Shown: positions 7,928-40,801 of the stretch, one piece after another
How positions within the stretch are numbered: the stretch's first letter is position 1
How the letters are laid out: each line of letters begins with the position of its first letter
Assembly (NCBI GenBank): GCA_013150915.1
Contig: JAADJE010000089.1
Span: 1 to 40,801 of the forward strand
Source of the DNA: Gammaproteobacteria bacterium
GTDB lineage: Bacteria; Pseudomonadota; Gammaproteobacteria; BMS3Bbin11
Length of the DNA stretch: 40,801 nt
Direction: 5' to 3'
Position numbers and translations under genes: made by a program
The notes under the pieces: model-generated
The model's database searches: none
What the model was told of the DNA's origin: nothing
The model's input: only the letters and a program-made list of their open reading frames with translations

Positions 7928-10900
7928 TTGAGAGACTTATTCAATCTTTTCAATAAGGCAGAAAAAAATGACGACTTTGATGCCATTCGAATTGGTCTGG
8001 CATCGCCGGAGAAAATTCGTTCGTGGTCATTTGGTGAAGTAAAGAAGCCGGAAACCATCAACTACAGAACGTTTAAACCTGAACGGGATGGCTTGTTCTG
8101 TGCCAAGCTGTTCGGGCCGGTCAGTGACTATGAATGTCTCTGTGGTAAATACAAGCGTCTCAAACACCGCGGTGTGGTGTGTGAGAAGTGTGGTGTTGAA
8201 GTCACCCATTCCAAAGTACGTCGTGAGCGCATGGGTCATATTGACCTGGCCACTCCCTGTGCGCATATCTGGTTCCTGAAATCCTTGCCTTCGCGCATGG
8301 GTTTGGTTCTGGACATGACCGTGCGTGACATTGAGCGTGTACTGTATTTTGAGGGCTATATTATTATTGATGCCGGCATGACCCCGCTGGAAGAGCAGGC
8401 ACTGCTGACCGAAGACCAGTATATCGAAGCGCTGGAAGAATACGGTGATGAATTTGAGGCGTCGATGGGTGCTGAGGCCATTCGATCGCTGCTGAAAAAG
8501 ATTGATCTAAAAGAGGTCGCCGAAACATTGCGTGAAGAGCTCGATAATACCAATGCGGTGACCAAGATCAAAAAGCTGACCAAGCGTTTGAAAGTGATCG
8601 AGGCCTTTATTGCGTCAAATAACAAGCCGGAATGGATGATCCTTGATATCCTGCCGGTACTGCCACCTGACCTGCGTCCCCTGGTACCGCTGGATGGTGG
8701 TCGTTTTGCCACCTCTGATCTAAATGATTTATATCGTCGCGTTATTAACCGTAATAACCGTCTAAAAAGACTACTGGAGCTGAATGCGCCGGACATCATC
8801 GTCCGCAATGAAAAGCGTATGCTGCAGGAAGCCGTAGACGCATTGCTGGATAACGGACGTCGTGGCAAAGCCATTACCGGTGCCAACAAACGTCAGTTAA
8901 AATCCCTGGCCGATATGATCAAGGGCAAGCAGGGGCGTTTCCGCCAAAACTTACTGGGTAAACGCGTCGATTACTCCGGTCGCTCAGTTATCGTGGTTGG
9001 CCCGACACTAAAACTGCACCAGTGTGGGCTACCGAAGAAAATGGCACTGGAGCTGTTCAAGCCCTTTATTTTCAGCAAACTGGAATTGCGTGGTCTTGCG
9101 ACGACCATCAAGCAGGCCAAGAAAATGGTCGAAACCGAAAGCGCTGAAGTATGGGACATCCTGGAAGAAGTCATTCGTGAGCATCCGGTACTGCTGAATC
9201 GGGCACCCACCCTTCACAGGCTGGGCATCCAGGCATTTGAGCCTGTCTTGATTGAAGGTAAGGCGATTCAGCTCCATCCACTGGTCTGCGCGCCGTATAA
9301 TGCTGACTTTGACGGTGACCAGATGGCGGTACATGTGCCGCTGTCTATCGAAGCACAGCTGGAAGCGCGTACGCTGATGATGTCTACCAATAATGTGCTT
9401 TCACCTGCTAACGGTGAACCCGTCATTGTACCGTCACAGGATATCGTACTGGGTCTGTATTTCATGACACGCACAAACCTTAATGCCAAAGGCAACGGCG
9501 GTATCTTTGCTGATGTGAAGCAAGCCCAGTTAGCTTATGATTCTGGCGCAGTTGACCTGCACGCCTCGGCAAAAATACGTATTACTGAAGTGGTCACCGA
9601 TGAAAAGGGTAAAGAAACCACAGTAACAACAATATATGATACAACCGTGGGTCGTGCCATCCTGTCTGAAATCCTGCCTTCTGCACTGCCGTTTTCGGCC
9701 ATTAACAGAGTGATGAAGAAAAAGGCGATCTCCGAAATAATTAATCAAAGCTATCGCAAGGCGGGGTTAAAAGATACTGTAATCTTTGCTGATAAACTGA
9801 TGTACACCGGTTTCAAGATGGCAGCCAAATCAGGTATATCCATTGGCATTGATGACATGGTGGTTCCTGCCAACAAGGCAGATATTCTCAGCAAGGCCGA
9901 AACTGAAGTTCTCAGCATTCAGCAGCAATTTAATGACGGTCTGGTGACGAATGGTGAGCGATACAACAAGGTTGTAGATATCTGGACGCATACCAGTGAA
10001 AAAGTTGCCAATGAAATGATGGATCAGTTGGGTACTGATACATTTACGAATGAGGCCGGTGAAACCGTTGAGCAGGAATCATTCAACTCCATTTATATGA
10101 TGGCCGACTCCGGTGCCCGTGGTTCACATGCACAGATCAGGCAGCTGTCTGGTATGCGCGGTCTGATGGCCAAGCCGGACGGTTCCATTATTGAAACACC
10201 CATTACGGCTAATTTTCGTGAAGGGCTGAACGTACTGCAGTACTTTATTTCCACTCACGGTGCACGCAAGGGCCTTGCCGATACAGCACTGAAAACCGCT
10301 AATTCCGGGTACCTGACACGTCGCCTGGTTGATGTTTGCCAGGATCTGGTGGTGGTGGAAGAAGACTGTGGTACTAAGCAGGGTGTTATTAAAGAAACCC
10401 TGGTTGAGGGGGGTGAAGTCGTTGTGCCATTGTCTGATTTAGTGTTGGGTCGAGTTGTAGTCAGTGATATCCCGAATCCGGAAGGCAAGGACACGCTGAT
10501 CAAGAAAGGCAAAATGCTGGATGAAAAAGACATTGCCCAGCTTGATGAGAAATCTATCAATGAAGTTCTGGTGCGTTCACCGGTAACCTGCGAAACCCGT
10601 TATGGTATTTGTGCCACCTGTTATGGTCGTGACCTCGGGCGGGGCCATCTGGTCACTACCGGTGAAGCAGTTGGTGTCATCGCTGCACAATCTATCGGCG
10701 AACCAGGTACTCAGTTGACGATGCGTACCTTCCATATTGGTGGCGCGGCCACCGGTTCCGCTGCAGTTAGTAATGTTGAAGTGAAGAATAACGGGACTAT
10801 CCATTTCCATAACGTCAAGTCCGTAAAAAATACCAAGGGGAATCTTGTTACCATTTCTCGCTCAGGTGAACTGATTGTTCAAGACAAGCGAGGGGCGAAC

Positions 10901-12148
10901 CGTGAAAAGCACAAAATACCCTACGGTGCTGAACTAAATATCAAGGACGGCCAGAAAATTGTTTCCGGCGATATTGTTGCCGAATGGGATCCGCATACAC
11001 ATCCGATAGTTTCCGAGGCGGCTGGAAAAATCAGCTTCATAGACATGCTGGAGGATGTCACCTTCAAGAAACAGTCTGATGATGTTACAGGTCTGACGCG
11101 TTATGTGATCACTGATTTAACGCAGCGATCAGCGGCAGCTGCTGACATGAAGCCTGCAATCATGCTGGTGGACAAAAAAGGCGAACCGATTAACTTCCCG
11201 GGTACCGAAATACCGGCGAAATACTTCCTGCCCGGTAACGCCATTTTAATGGTTGATGACGGCAAAGAAGTCAAAATTGGTGACATAATGGCCAAAAATC
11301 CGCGTGAAGGTTCAACTACCCGTGATATTACCGGTGGCCTGCCGCGTGTAGCCGAGTTATTTGAGGCGCGCAAACCGAAAGAACCGGCGATTCTGGCTGA
11401 GGTCAGTGGTGTTATCTCGTTTGGTAAGGAAACCAAAGGCAAACAGCGCCTGGTGATCTCCGATAACGAGGGTGAAAACCATGAATTTCTGATCGCCAAG
11501 GATCGTCCGCTGTCAGTGGTCGAAGGTGAATCCGTTATTAAAGGTGATGTTCTGGTAGATGGCCCACCCGTTGCGGCAGATATCCTGCGTTTGAAGGGTG
11601 TGCCAGAGTTGCTTGAGTACATCGTTGCAGAAGTACAGGATGTTTACCGCCTGCAAGGTGTGAAGATCGATGATAAGCATATTGAGGTTATTGTTCGTCA
11701 GATGCTACGTAAGGTGACAATTCTTGATCCGGGCGACACCCTGCTGCTGCCGGGCGAACAGCTGGAACGCACGGCCTTACTGGAAGAAAATGACAGGATG
11801 CTGGCTTCGGGTAAGAAGGAAGCCATAGCAGAGCGTAATTTGCTGGGCATCACCAAGGCGTCTTTGTTAACCGAATCCTTTATCTCAGCGGCATCTTTCC
11901 AGGAGACAACGCGTGTTCTGACCGAGGCATCGATCATTGGCAAAACGGACTCCTTACGGGGCCTGAAAGAGAATGTTATTGTTGGCCGCTTGATTCCCGC
12001 TGGAACGGGCCTGGCCTACCATCAGGAACGCCAGCGCCGCAAAGAACGCGAAAAGGATGAAAAACAGGCACTGGAAGAATTCGTAAAGGGCGCCAAGACA
12101 ATTGAAACCGAAGTATCTGAAGGGGATGAGGCAGCTATCTCTGCATGA
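7928..12148 (+). CDS. rpoC: DNA-directed RNA polymerase subunit beta'
   Basis: RpoC carries the catalytic magnesium site and bridge helix of RNA polymerase. The 1406-residue product has the N-terminal zinc site C70, C72, C85, C88 and the active-site motif NADFDGD at 458-464, with Asp 460, 462 and 464 as in E. coli. The start is TTG 7928, supported by GGAGACAGG just upstream and by alignment of MRDLFNLF with E. coli MKDLLKFL. A second cysteine cluster ([17 protein letters not shown]) is intact. Confidence 0.99.
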
Positions 12149-36301: not shown

Positions 36302-36576
36302 CCGTTCTGAGGTTTTTTGTAGGAGCGTTGCTCGGCGCGATTTTTTGTTTTTTTGTGGGTGATTCCGGCTTTATGTTTCGTCCTTTATGGGCGAGTAACC
36401 AAAAGAAATGACACCCCATGTGCTGGCCTTCGGCGTCTCTGCGCGCTTCAGTCTGAACCGGGCACGGTGAACTCGCTGCGCTCAGACGTGCACCGCGCTT
36501 ATCCGGCCCAGCCTTCCAGTGCTCGACAGCCCAAAAGGGGATTGTGGGCCAAAGACCAAAGACCCAGGTATTACTA
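36277..36576. other. 300-base intergenic region between ssb and M3 peptidase gene
   Basis: No gene is supported. The left part has the ssb terminator and a REP-like palindrome. The right part (about 36350-36565) is a GC-rich segment unlike its flanks, with phrases such as GGGCGAGTAACCAAAAGAAA and AACTCGCTGCGCTCAGACG. I recall such phrases from dispersed intergenic repeats of gammaproteobacteria, but this is unverified. No clear promoter for the peptidase gene was found. Confidence 0.45.
36318..36340 (+). repeat. REP-like palindromic element, copy 3
   Basis: TGTAGGAGCG-TTGCTCGG-CGCGA, followed by a run of T. The GTAGGAGCG head and CGCGA end match the general REP pattern known from Pseudomonas and relatives. 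Confidence 0.5.
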
Positions 36577-38823
36577 ATGACCAGAACTAAATCTCACAAC
36601 AAGCTTCTTCATCGGTTTCCTGCGTTTATCACGGGCCTATTCCTGACCGCTATACTGTCTGCCTGTGGTCAGAGTGATAACACAGACAATCAACAGTCTG
36701 AAGTAGAGGCTAAAACATCACAACCGGCCACGGAGTCCACTGCTAAGTTTCAAGCGAATAAAGCAGGGGAGGGTACCGAAAAATTATTGGCACTATCCTC
36801 TTTTCAGCCCGCCGCAAAGAGAGCGAAGGTATTATTTGAATTGCCGGTTTGGGAGAAAACACCCACCGAAATTGATACTTCTGTTAGCGCTGCGATTGAA
36901 AAAGGGGATAAACAGCTGGATGCCATTGCCACACTGTCAGCGGAGGAAAGTAATTTCGCCAACACCATCGCTGCACTGGACGATGCCTTCTACCAGGGTC
37001 TTAATGTCAATGATCGTATTGATGTTATCAGAGAAACCAGTCAGAAAAAGGCGATGCGAGATAAGGCGCTGGAGGCCAGTAAGAAGATTCAGGCATGGTA
37101 TGTGGCGGCAGGATTCAGGGAGGATGTTTATAAAACAGTGGTTGCCTATGCGGCAACCAGGCCCAGGTTGCGGGGCGAAGATGCCATGCTGTTAAAAGAA
37201 ACCCTGCGTGATTATCGTCGCAACGGTATGGCTCTGCCAAAAGAAAAACGTCAGCAATTAAAAGAATTAAAAACTGAGCTGAATAATATGAGTCTGGAAT
37301 TTGCCGCCAATATCACTGAGGCCAAAGTAGCTGTTGAATTTACAGCGGAAGAATTGGCGGGTATGCCGGAAGATTTTCTCAATAATAAGGAATTGAAAAC
37401 GGATAAAGGGACTTACAAGGTAAAGGCCAATGTCAACTGGCAGTATATCGCAGTCATGCAGAATGCCAGCAATGAAGAGACACGCAAAAAACTGGTGACG
37501 GTACGTTCAAATAGGGCGAAGAAAAAAAATATCCCGCTGTTCACCAAAATTCTAAAAACACGGGCACAGATAGCCACTTTACTTGGTTATGATAACTGGG
37601 CTGACTACCGTATTGAAACAAAAATGGCGAAGACGGCGAAAACAGCCTTTGATTTTGAACAGCGCCTGGTGCAGGGGCTGCAACCGAAGTTTGATGATGA
37701 AATGGTCCTGCTGCAGAAACTGAAGGCGGACGAAACCGGTAATCCTGATGCAAAAATTATGCTCTGGGACATGCGTTATTACAAAAATATATTGAAAAAG
37801 ACCCGCTACCAGGTTGATACCAGTAAGTTGAAAGTATTTTTTGAACTGGACAATGTTTTAAACGGTATGTTCGGTATTTTTGAAGAAATTTTCGGTCTTA
37901 AAATCGAGGCCGTTGAGCCGGGTTATAAATGGGTTGACGATCTGCGTCTATATGCCATTATCGATTCTGCTTCCGGTGATCCGCTGGGTCTGATCTACAT
38001 GGATCTGTACCCACGGGAGGATAAATATGGGCATTTTGCCCAGTTTGGCGTGACCACAGGTAAACTACTCAATGATGGTTTTTACCAGCGCCCTGTGGTG
38101 GCCCTGATTGTTAATTTCCCACCGGCAACAGAAGATAGGCCTTCATTATTGAAGCACAGTGATGTGGAGACGCTATTTCATGAATTTGGCCACGCACTGC
38201 ATTCCGTGCTAACCCAGGCAAAGTACGCTTCATTTTCAGGTACCTCAGTGCCACGGGATTTTGTTGAGGCTCCGTCGCAGATGCTGGAAAACTGGGTATG
38301 GGACAAATCAGTCCTTGATCGTTTTGCCGTTGATTATCGTGATCCCAGCAAGAAAATTCCAGAAGACACGCTGGATAGGATGGAGCAGGCACGATTTGCA
38401 ACCATCGCCACCTGGTATAGACGGCAGCTTTCTTTTGGTATGCTGGACCTGAAATTGCACATGAGCAGTGATGAGAAGGATTTTGATAACTTTGTTAAAG
38501 TCAGTAATGACATCATGTCTAAAGTCTATCTGGCACCACCAAAAGATACTGCCTTTGTTGCCTCCTTCGGTCATCTTGCCGGAGGTTATGATGCCGGTTA
38601 CTACGGTTATGCCTGGGCAGAAGCCATCTCGGCAGACATGGTCTCGGTGTTTAAAAAAAGTCCAGGAGGTTTGATGGATAAAGATGTTGGCAAACGGTTG
38701 CGTGATGAGATCTATGCCAAAGGGGGCTCACGGGAGATCGATGAATCAATAAACGCCTTCCTCGGCCGCAAGCGTTCACTGGATCCATTCTTTGAATATA
38801 TTGGTCTGGGTGACAAAAAGTAG
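36577..38823 (+). CDS. M3 family zinc oligopeptidase, lipoprotein
   Basis: A thimet-oligopeptidase/Dcp-type metallopeptidase that cleaves short peptides. The zinc motif HEFGH is at 535-539 and the third ligand is Glu564 in FVEAPSQMLENW, at the family spacing. ATG 36577 gives 748 residues and places a lipoprotein signal first: a basic start, a hydrophobic stretch, and lipobox LSAC with Cys30 followed by Gly. It is thus probably anchored at the periplasmic side of the outer membrane. A low-complexity polar linker (about 31-65) follows. The longer frame to GTG 36544 would spoil the signal peptide and was rejected. Confidence 0.92.
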   Translation: MTRTKSHNKLLHRFPAFITGLFLTAILSACGQSDNTDNQQSEVEAKTSQPATESTAKFQANKAGEGTEKLLALSSFQPAAKRAKVLFELPVWEKTPTEIDTSVSAAIEKGDKQLDAIATLSAEESNFANTIAALDDAFYQGLNVNDRIDVIRETSQKKAMRDKALEASKKIQAWYVAAGFREDVYKTVVAYAATRPRLRGEDAMLLKETLRDYRRNGMALPKEKRQQLKELKTELNNMSLEFAANITEAKVAVEFTAEELAGMPEDFLNNKELKTDKGTYKVKANVNWQYIAVMQNASNEETRKKLVTVRSNRAKKKNIPLFTKILKTRAQIATLLGYDNWADYRIETKMAKTAKTAFDFEQRLVQGLQPKFDDEMVLLQKLKADETGNPDAKIMLWDMRYYKNILKKTRYQVDTSKLKVFFELDNVLNGMFGIFEEIFGLKIEAVEPGYKWVDDLRLYAIIDSASGDPLGLIYMDLYPREDKYGHFAQFGVTTGKLLNDGFYQRPVVALIVNFPPATEDRPSLLKHSDVETLFHEFGHALHSVLTQAKYASFSGTSVPRDFVEAPSQMLENWVWDKSVLDRFAVDYRDPSKKIPEDTLDRMEQARFATIATWYRRQLSFGMLDLKLHMSSDEKDFDNFVKVSNDIMSKVYLAPPKDTAFVASFGHLAGGYDAGYYGYAWAEAISADMVSVFKKSPGGLMDKDVGKRLRDEIYAKGGSREIDESINAFLGRKRSLDPFFEYIGLGDKK

Positions 38824-38990
38824 TATATGTGTATGTACTAATCCGAACGCACTCATCATCCTTTATGTCAAATCGTCTTTGGTTCTTGGGTGCGTAATCC
38901 TATTTCTAATGGGAACTGCTTCTTTTTATGGCGACCAAACGCTATCTCCATAATTGGGGTATCTACCTCTTATTGCTTTAATATAGCAAT

Positions 38991-39260
38991 TTATGCATAA
39001 CAACAGACATAGCATGAATACTTATCACAACACACGAAACAACCACCGTAGTAAACATCTGATGGATTCTCTGGCATTTTGAAAACACTTCCTAAAATCT
39101 CATCAATTTTTTCTTGCTTCTTTTTTTCTGATGGATCATTTGGGTCTCCAAGCATAAATCGAGTTACCTGTTCTTCAATGCCGTGCTCATTTAAAACTTC
39201 GTTGAACTTCATAAGAATATCAGGAAGTACTTTTTCTAATTTTTCTACATCGCAGGTCAT
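38991..39260 (-). CDS. Small protein with Gly-Gly and cysteine-repeat C-terminus
   Basis: I do not recognise this 89-residue protein. ATG 39260 has an excellent ribosome binding site (AGAGGAGATG), so translation is likely. Residues 4-60 are charged and mostly helical in character, ending in a KKKQEKIDEILGSVF segment. Then comes YYGG (70-73) and a 16-residue tail CFVCCDKYSCYVCCYA with two repeats of C-aromatic-V-C-C (Cys74, 77, 78, 83, 86, 87). A Gly-Gly before a short Cys-rich core is the layout of peptides exported by double-glycine peptidase transporters, but no such transporter or modifying enzyme is nearby. Metal binding is the other option. The frame is followed by an AT-rich stem (ATTGCT/AGCAAT at 38972-38990). 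Confidence 0.75.
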   Translation of the reverse strand: MTCDVEKLEKVLPDILMKFNEVLNEHGIEEQVTRFMLGDPNDPSEKKKQEKIDEILGSVFKMPENPSDVYYGGCFVCCDKYSCYVCCYA

Positions 39261-39375
39261 TTTACATCTCCTCTTAGGTAAATAGAATTACGATACTACC
39301 ACCGGGTGAGACATTCCTGAACCTCATTACTATTTATACTGTAGGTGATGACCTGCTCCCCTAGAAGTTTTTCCC

Positions 39376-39849
39376 CTATAGCCGATCTGAATCAACTTTC
39401 CAGAATTTCTTCTCCGGCCCCCAGCGGTCTGCCACCTCTTTGGGAGGGCGGACAACCAGCGCTTCACATGTGGCAGTTACTGTGCCGTCGGGTAGCCGGA
39501 GTTCTGCTGCAACTTTGGCTTTATGAGCACTTCGGCGGATCACCCAGCCGACCGCGGTGAGTTCTACCCCGGTGGGTGTTAAATTTCGAAAGGTGGTCTC
39601 CAATTTTAAAGTAACAAATAACTCGTCAAAATCACCGTCGAGCAAAATAGAACGACCGGCAGTTTCGTCTAAAATCGCGGCGACAATTCCCCCATGCGCA
39701 ATCCCTGGGTAGCCATTGAAACGCTCGGGAATAGTTACTTTCCCCTGATTCTGTTCTTTTTCCGGGATATTGTACCAGCTCATTTTCAGACCCGAATCAT
39801 TTTCGCGGCCACACATAAAACAGCTGCGAGAATTGGGTTGTTTGTCCAT
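39376..39849 (-). CDS. PaaI-type hotdog-fold thioesterase
   Basis: A 157-residue 4HBT-family protein; such enzymes hydrolyse acyl-CoA thioesters. It has the hotdog signature GIAHGGIVAAILDETAGR with HGG at 52-54 and Asp61/Glu62 as likely catalytic acid residues. The N-terminus carries CxxC (Cys10, Cys13) in SRSCFMCGREND, seen in a subgroup of these proteins. The substrate is unknown. ATG 39849 has GAAGAG upstream. It directly follows an attC-like remnant, so it may mark the first chromosomal gene beyond a cassette array. Confidence 0.85.
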   Translation of the reverse strand: MDKQPNSRSCFMCGRENDSGLKMSWYNIPEKEQNQGKVTIPERFNGYPGIAHGGIVAAILDETAGRSILLDGDFDELFVTLKLETTFRNLTPTGVELTAVGWVIRRSAHKAKVAAELRLPDGTVTATCEALVVRPPKEVADRWGPEKKFWKVDSDRL

Positions 39850-39869
39850 ATTAGACTCTTCGGTTTAGG

Positions 39870-39908
39870 AGCGCTTGACGTTTTTGACGCTACAGTCGCT
39901 TGTTATGC
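39870..39908 (-). repeat. Candidate partial attC site (cassette array remnant)
   Basis: On the minus strand, four bases after the stop of the small basic protein gene, GCATAAC is followed by AAGCGACTGTAGCG. This has the same layout as the R''-L'' half of the clear attC at 40265-40361 (ATAACAA and AGCG at equal spacing). The expected right half with a GTTATGC box is missing: after a short AT spacer the DNA reads CAAGCGCTCC. It may be a degenerate last attC of the array. Confidence 0.35.
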
Positions 39909-39911
39909 GTT

Positions 39912-40235
39912 TTATTTATTACCATGTATTCCAATTATCTCAGCAGTATTATTTGTTTTGGATTTTATGTTTTTTATTTTACTTATCAAACCAGGAGAAA
40001 CATTCCATTTTTGCCTATTTTCAGTGGTTATTGTGACTGTCTTTTTATTAAATTTAACAAGTGTACCTATTTGTCTTTTTCTACCTGGCGGTTCAAAAGC
40101 AACTTGTTCTCCAGGATTGAACTGCATCATTTCATTATGAGTATGCATTGTTTCTAAAAATTTGAGACGCTCGACAATTTTATGATTTAGTTCAATTAGT
40201 TCATCTTCTGTTAAATTATCTATATTAATTTTCAT
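39912..40235 (-). CDS. Small conserved basic protein, SH3/KOW-like, probable cassette gene
   Basis: The 107-residue product has an N-terminal helix (NLTEDELIELNHKIVERLKFLE, 7-28), a helix-like stretch, and then a beta-rich segment (FNPGEQVAFEPPGRKRQIG and LVKFNKKTVTITTENRQKW) that reads like a KOW or SH3-type nucleic-acid-binding barrel. I have an impression that similar small hypothetical proteins are common in gammaproteobacteria, but no function is known to me. ATG 40235 follows GCAGGTAAT. A 35-base leader connects it to the attC boundary at 40270, and an attC-like half site follows its stop, so it is organised as an integron cassette. Confidence 0.75.
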   Translation of the reverse strand: MKINIDNLTEDELIELNHKIVERLKFLETMHTHNEMMQFNPGEQVAFEPPGRKRQIGTLVKFNKKTVTITTENRQKWNVSPGLISKIKNIKSKTNNTAEIIGIHGNK

Positions 40236-40264
40236 GATATTACCTGCACTTTAAAATATTTACC

Positions 40265-40361
40265 GCATAACGCCATGCTTAGCGGCAATTCAAAGTGGCG
40301 CGGTTTTGCGAATGCAAAACAAGTGCCGCTTTGAATTGTACGCTGGAGCTATTTGTTATGT
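40265..40361 (-). repeat. attC recombination site of an integron cassette
   Basis: On the minus strand the 97-base element starts ACATAAC (R'') and ends GTTATGC (R'), which pair. Inside, AGCTCCAGCG (L'') pairs with CGCTAAGCA (L') with one extra base on the L'' side, the extrahelical base that sets attC polarity. Further in, CAATTCAAAG pairs with CTTTGAATTG and GTTTTGC with GCAAAAC around a four-base loop. It lies 20 bases after the M23 gene stop and before the next gene on the same strand, as expected for a cassette 3' end. Confidence 0.85.
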
Positions 40362-40381
40362 GTTTACCCATTAATTGTACT

Positions 40382-40801
40382 CTATATTTTTATAAATGAT
40401 TTAACTTTTGGAACATCAAGTGAGTGCTTTTCCCATTTTTTATTTTCATTCAATTCCATATACTCTCTAAAAACAAAAGGAAGAACTTTTGCACTTAAAG
40501 GATTATTCATTTGGTCAAATATATTGACATGCAAATGAGGCATTGTTGAGTTTCCTGAATTACCAATTTTACCAATTGAATCACCAGATTTAATCTGTTG
40601 GCCTTCAGCTACGTTTATTGAGGCATTTCTTAAGTGCGCCAGTAAAACCACATAGCCTTTTTCTGCTTGAATTATGACGTAGTTTCCTACATTTGGCCTT
40701 ATATCTAGTCTTCCATTTATTTTTTTCGGTTTAAACTTATAAGTTGCGTTATACCACAGGGTAATTGTTTTCCAAATATTGGTTTTTTCATGGTCTTCCC
40801 A
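40382..40801 (-). CDS. M23 family (LytM-type) peptidase, 5' end outside the window
   Basis: The frame runs off the window edge; 139 C-terminal residues are visible. It carries the end of a LytM/M23 domain: VVLLAHLRNASI (His66 of the visible part), then GQQIKSGDSIGKIGNSGNS and the catalytic/zinc motif PHLHVNI (His89, His91). The first zinc ligand motif (HxxxD) would lie upstream. M23 enzymes cut peptidoglycan cross-links or peptides in the envelope. The GNSGNSTMPHLH core is unusually well kept for a cassette gene. The attC after its stop marks it as the cassette upstream of the basic protein gene. Confidence 0.85.
   Translation of the reverse strand, partial: WEDHEKTNIWKTITLWYNATYKFKPKKINGRLDIRPNVGNYVIIQAEKGYVVLLAHLRNASINVAEGQQIKSGDSIGKIGNSGNSTMPHLHVNIFDQMNNPLSAKVLPFVFREYMELNENKKWEKHSLDVPKVKSFIKI

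Follow-up and report, generated by a model that had tools for sequence, protein, structure and literature searches.

The imperfect hairpin near the right end of the DNA analyzed here (the window: 40,801 nt, an entire contig) is an attC site by every feature open to testing. With a probability of about 0.93, it is the attC of a gene cassette encoding an M23 family peptidase, joined to a second cassette that encodes a 107-aa protein, in a sedentary chromosomal integron array split by the assembly. The best reading of the wider data is that this sedentary integron is in decay, its integrase having decayed or been lost across the genus. The site is well formed but ordinary, and this kind of system is well known; the most notable part is the genus-wide decay of the integrase.

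Anatomy and covariance-model scores of the attC site

The 97-nt site lies on the minus strand at 40265-40361, exactly where an earlier note on this DNA had placed a well-formed attC. Read along the minus strand, it consists of the R'' box ACATAAC (40355-40361), a spacer starting with AA, the L'' box GCTCCAGCG with an extrahelical base (40341-40349), a long stem topped by an apical hairpin, the L' box CGCTAAGC (40277-40284), a second spacer and the R' box GTTATGC (40265-40271). The R boxes were assigned from the sequence and its alignment to the R'' and R' columns of the covariance model described below, and the L boxes from the sequence and the fold. The R boxes form an inverted repeat in which R'' ends in AAC and R' begins with GTT, as is the rule for attC sites, and pair at six of seven positions (GCATAAC/GTTATGT). 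The L boxes also pair (GCTTAGCG/CGCTGGAGC), with two unpaired bases in L'' versus one in L', which leaves the surplus base on the L'' side that sets the strand; further asymmetry is found more inward in the stem. The R and L box pairing described in the earlier note is therefore real, with the correction that the site is on the minus strand, with R'' at its high-coordinate end and R' at its low end, and the extra base that it saw on the L'' side is present. Strand exchange is predicted to involve cleavage at the G^TT of R', between 40271 and 40270.

Single-stranded DNA folding gave -29.4 kcal/mol (z -5.95) for the plus strand of this interval and -25.1 kcal/mol (z -5.25) for the minus strand, energies that none of 200 shuffles equaled in either case, in keeping with the long imperfect stem noted earlier. 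Both strands form strong hairpins but fold unlike each other, the asymmetry expected for an attC. A DNA similarity search found the 141-bp stretch that carries the site in a single copy in the genome, indicating that it is not a dispersed repeat, and Rfam models matched just tRNA and the alpha-operon leader.

A simple scanner for R and L boxes picked up the window site but missed weaker sites at locus L121 and on contig C42, and was replaced by a covariance model. The first model (R1) was derived from 27 attC sites in integrons of other gammaproteobacterial families, representing 9 of the 19 integrase loci sampled; sites were gathered from array-side DNA by box pairing and folding and then aligned, and the structure was written by hand. 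R1 uses alignment A1, a MAFFT alignment (A2) having been passed over as out of register in the L'' region. The sole R1 match in the window was 40361-40265 on the minus strand, which covered model positions 1-71 of 71 with a few non-standard pairs and scored 31.7 bits (E 2.5e-6); on the plus strand there was no match up to E = 5. When R1 was run on the whole draft genome (2.65 Mb in 122 contigs, estimated contamination 0.41%), the window site ranked first (E 1.6e-4), followed by a site on contig C69 and then by five consecutive sites on contig C101. Across training and related loci R1 gave 64 matches, from which a second model (R2) was built; the window site was absent from its training set and scored 40.1 bits. 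Both-side changes occur in 17 of the 22 pairs of the R2 alignment, and its covariation score is 0.457 versus at most 0.126 for slid controls, a score to be read with the fact that the alignment was fitted to the model, which favors the modeled structure. Control DNA from 79 other bacterial loci (1.1 Mb of M3 peptidase gene flanks, two of the loci from congeners) yielded top scores of 13.3 bits with R1 and 14.4 bits with R2. The covariance search proposed in the earlier note thus placed the site far above background rather than below threshold, and the hairpin did not recur at non-cassette loci, the other outcome that the note held would count against an attC.

Cassette genes and other attC sites in the genome

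The M23 peptidase gene (40382-40801, minus strand; Pfam PF01551, E 9.9e-16) is open at the contig end, which falls inside it 440 nt past the attC. Its stop codon is 20 nt from R'', and 29 nt separate R' from the start codon of the next cassette gene, an ORF for the 107-aa protein without a Pfam domain (39912-40235, minus strand). The attC thus follows the stop of its own gene with the next gene close past R', all on the minus strand, which upholds the earlier description of same-strand genes at cassette spacing. Both genes are AT-rich, with 31.9% (M23) and 28.1% G+C versus 47.7% for the window. Among the ten best matches listed for the 107-aa protein, identities to plasmid hypothetical proteins were 48-59% over 83 aa. 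Its relatives are found on 99 plasmid records, mostly from Rhizobiaceae, and for two of the listed ones the overlying features are described as hypothetical protein and IS66 family transposase. Farther from the contig end, on the same strand, are an accessory 4HBT thioesterase gene (39376-39849; Pfam PF03061; 50% G+C), which a genus search did not find in six congeners, and an 89-aa ORF without a Pfam domain (38991-39260); the cassette status of both is uncertain.

A filter-free scan of 38800-40801 with the full model found no second attC, and none beside the thioesterase gene. A candidate at approximately 39850-39905, after the 107-aa gene (GCATAACAAGCG), was rejected, having neither an attC-like fold nor a filter-free model signal. 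The window therefore contains one complete attC, compared with the default of two for a CALIN in IntegronFinder, and more may lie past the contig end. Since the contig stops at 40801 and its continuation is unassembled, we infer the array at this locus.

The cassette stretch (38824-40801) is preceded by an M3 peptidase gene (36544-38823), after which the gene order is unlike that in all four congeners with a close M3 orthologue. The gene in this position is one that we take to be SIMPL-like in three of them (G001, G005 and G006) and presumably encodes a pcm-like methyltransferase in the fourth (G002). Searches of the window's genome with the G002 pcm gene returned just relatives of 31-49% identity, and with the SIMPL-like gene of G001 no match. 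The earlier claim that the cassettes lie close to the core ribosomal supercluster in this lineage consequently holds for the window's genome but is private to it, the congeners having other genes after M3; the integrase locus of the genus adjoins endA-rimO.

Further attC sites are scattered over the draft genome. Contig C101 carries complete sites at 9511, 10151, 10565, 10957 and 11342 of locus L178 and a sixth, at 11786, that is cut by the contig end. They are spaced at intervals of 385-640 bp, and the intervening ORFs of 102-179 aa matched no Pfam family. With more than the at least two attC sites that define a cassette array or CALIN, and no integrase near, C101 bears out the earlier proposal of a cassette array or integrase-less cluster at the level of the genome, where the integrase is only a remnant, whereas the window itself has the one complete site. 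Within their aligned parts, three of the C101 sites show 93-98% similarity to one another; G002 and G001 also have sites of this type. Members of this lineage-specific type (L178 9511-10648, L208 17916-17989 and L209 3020-3103) share 88-98% identity over aligned parts, a range that spans comparisons within and between species and is comparable to that of Vibrio integron repeats. To the left of the array are transposase genes (L178 7791-9070; HTH_Tnp_1, and IS3-like by the second ORF) and an N gap. Contig C69 has an attC at its beginning, the terminal attC of C35 adjoins a toxin-antitoxin pair of the Phd/YefM-ParE type, and C66 and C18 have isolated single matches. On C42 there is a degraded attC (8.4 bits) with 1-base indels in both R boxes; a 39-nt part of it shares 92% identity with one of the attC sites of C101. 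Attempts to join contig ends by exact overlap (C45, C42, C101, C69, C35, C66 and C18) produced no join.

Alternative origins of the hairpin

An intrinsic terminator, or another imperfect inverted repeat that resembles an attC by chance, would also be expected to give a strong hairpin in both strands and could equally lie between same-strand genes. We regard this as extremely improbable, since the match to the attC model is full length, confined to a single strand and includes the R, L and asymmetry features, at a score that 1.1 Mb of control DNA never approached. Moreover, the 97-nt imperfect stem is much longer than that of a usual terminator, and the combination of a short GC-rich stem with a T-run is absent: no T-run follows the hairpin, where the minus strand reads GGTAAATATTTTAAAG. 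A real attC could instead be a stray insertion or the last remnant of an array, with no array at this locus and no cassettes there at any time beyond the M23 gene and, perhaps, the 107-aa ORF. The one complete site in the window and the isolated matches on C66 and C18 fit this explanation, which we nonetheless consider unlikely, as the contig end interrupts the cassette gene upstream, and three other contigs end in or near an attC (C101 on the right, C69 on the left and C35 on the right), as expected if attC repeats break the assembly. Repeated attC sites are known to do so (PMC9024848).

The same property raises the question of whether the stretch after M3 (38824-40801) is an assembly chimera, in which case the attC would be real but not near the ribosomal cluster. 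The fragmented state of the draft, the assembly-breaking nature of such arrays and the failure to find the usual neighbor of M3 in the window's genome are all compatible with a chimera. Set against these points, the M3 end of the stretch is without an attC, leaving the assembler no such repeat to jump on at that point, the stretch runs for 2 kb on one contig, and the estimated contamination is low; a chimera is therefore quite improbable. Little weight is likewise given to a more dynamic history, in which several independent integrase lesions accompany large arrays that continue to turn over from one species to another and have moved to new chromosomal sites, such as that next to the ribosomal supercluster, and which would imply an integrase acting in trans or some other route by which cassettes move.

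Integrase decay and comparison with known integrons

In integrons, it is the bottom strand of attC that folds and is recombined by IntI (PMC8352920, PMC8618304). At the attC of the M23 cassette this strand, here the plus strand of the window, would fold into the hairpin once the duplex is opened; an integron integrase would then recognize the R and L boxes as its binding sites, take its orientation from the surplus bases of L'', and exchange one strand at the G^TT of R', thereby excising or inserting the cassette. Recombination presumably occurred at this site in the past. At present it is probably inactive, or active only with an integrase supplied in trans, because no intact IntI was found: integron integrases above the family cut-off were present in 54 of 144 relatives, all outside the genus, and in the window's genome and six congeners nothing exceeded the TIGR02249 cut-off. 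A complete integron, as defined by an intact IntI gene, was accordingly not found in these seven genomes, and only remnants of the integrase were seen. The window's genome likewise has no intact locus at which an attI site and a Pc promoter would be expected next to intI, and no attI was found. The R2 search detected attC sites in five congeners (G000, G001, G002, G004 and G005).

In the window's genome, a C-terminal remnant of IntI adjoins hemD on C42, with the degraded attC close by; over a stretch of 29 aa this remnant matches the tail of the IntI of G005 at 83% identity, and further genes on this contig encode a DUF2726 protein, a methyltransferase and an HTH protein. G002 has, next to endA-rimO, a 122-aa IntI with its middle missing, and two attC sites with cassette-like ORFs lie on its divergent side. 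The IntI of G005 is frameshifted, with higBA as the first cassette and an attC, and just the C-terminal end was seen in G006, near a contig start. The remnants map to L242 8301-8669 (internal deletion), L121 921-2317 (frameshift), and L243 ~260-364 and L010 13794-13886 (truncations), at endA-rimO in three genomes and beside hemD in the window's genome. The contig with rimO in the latter (C34) stops inside endA, near the expected start of the integrase locus, so that the ancestral locus falls at an assembly break. The gene after hemD, which we read as hemC in G001, G003, G004 and G005, is replaced in the window's genome (L010 12759-13768) by the integrase remnant. This change of neighbor points to rearrangement by way of the integron region.

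In their lineage-conserved attC sites, small unassigned ORFs, toxin-antitoxin cassettes and single integrase locus divergent from the array, these elements resemble the sedentary chromosomal integrons of the Vibrio and Xanthomonas type; they differ in that no intact integrase was found in the window's genome or six congeners and that the array pieces lie on several unordered contigs. The C101 array, with five complete attC sites, one cut site and no integrase near, is like a CALIN as defined by IntegronFinder (PMC9024848), whereas the window contig, with its single attC, is below the default of two, and its end may hide others. A further parallel is with Xanthomonas, a genus of which many members have an inactivated integrase but have kept their arrays (PMC8618304); here, however, the lineage is Arenicellales-like and the lesions vary from species to species, with a frameshift in G005, an internal deletion in G002 and truncations in G006 and the window's genome.

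Integrons of this Arenicellales-like genus may not yet have been described, since, among the papers searched, the one that mentions both Arenicellales and integrons is a marine-sediment resistome survey. An uncultured Arenicellales-like gammaproteobacterial genus thereby joins the integron hosts, and it offers a small natural series of integrase decay, through frameshift, internal deletion and truncation with arrays retained, that is comparable to that of Xanthomonas.
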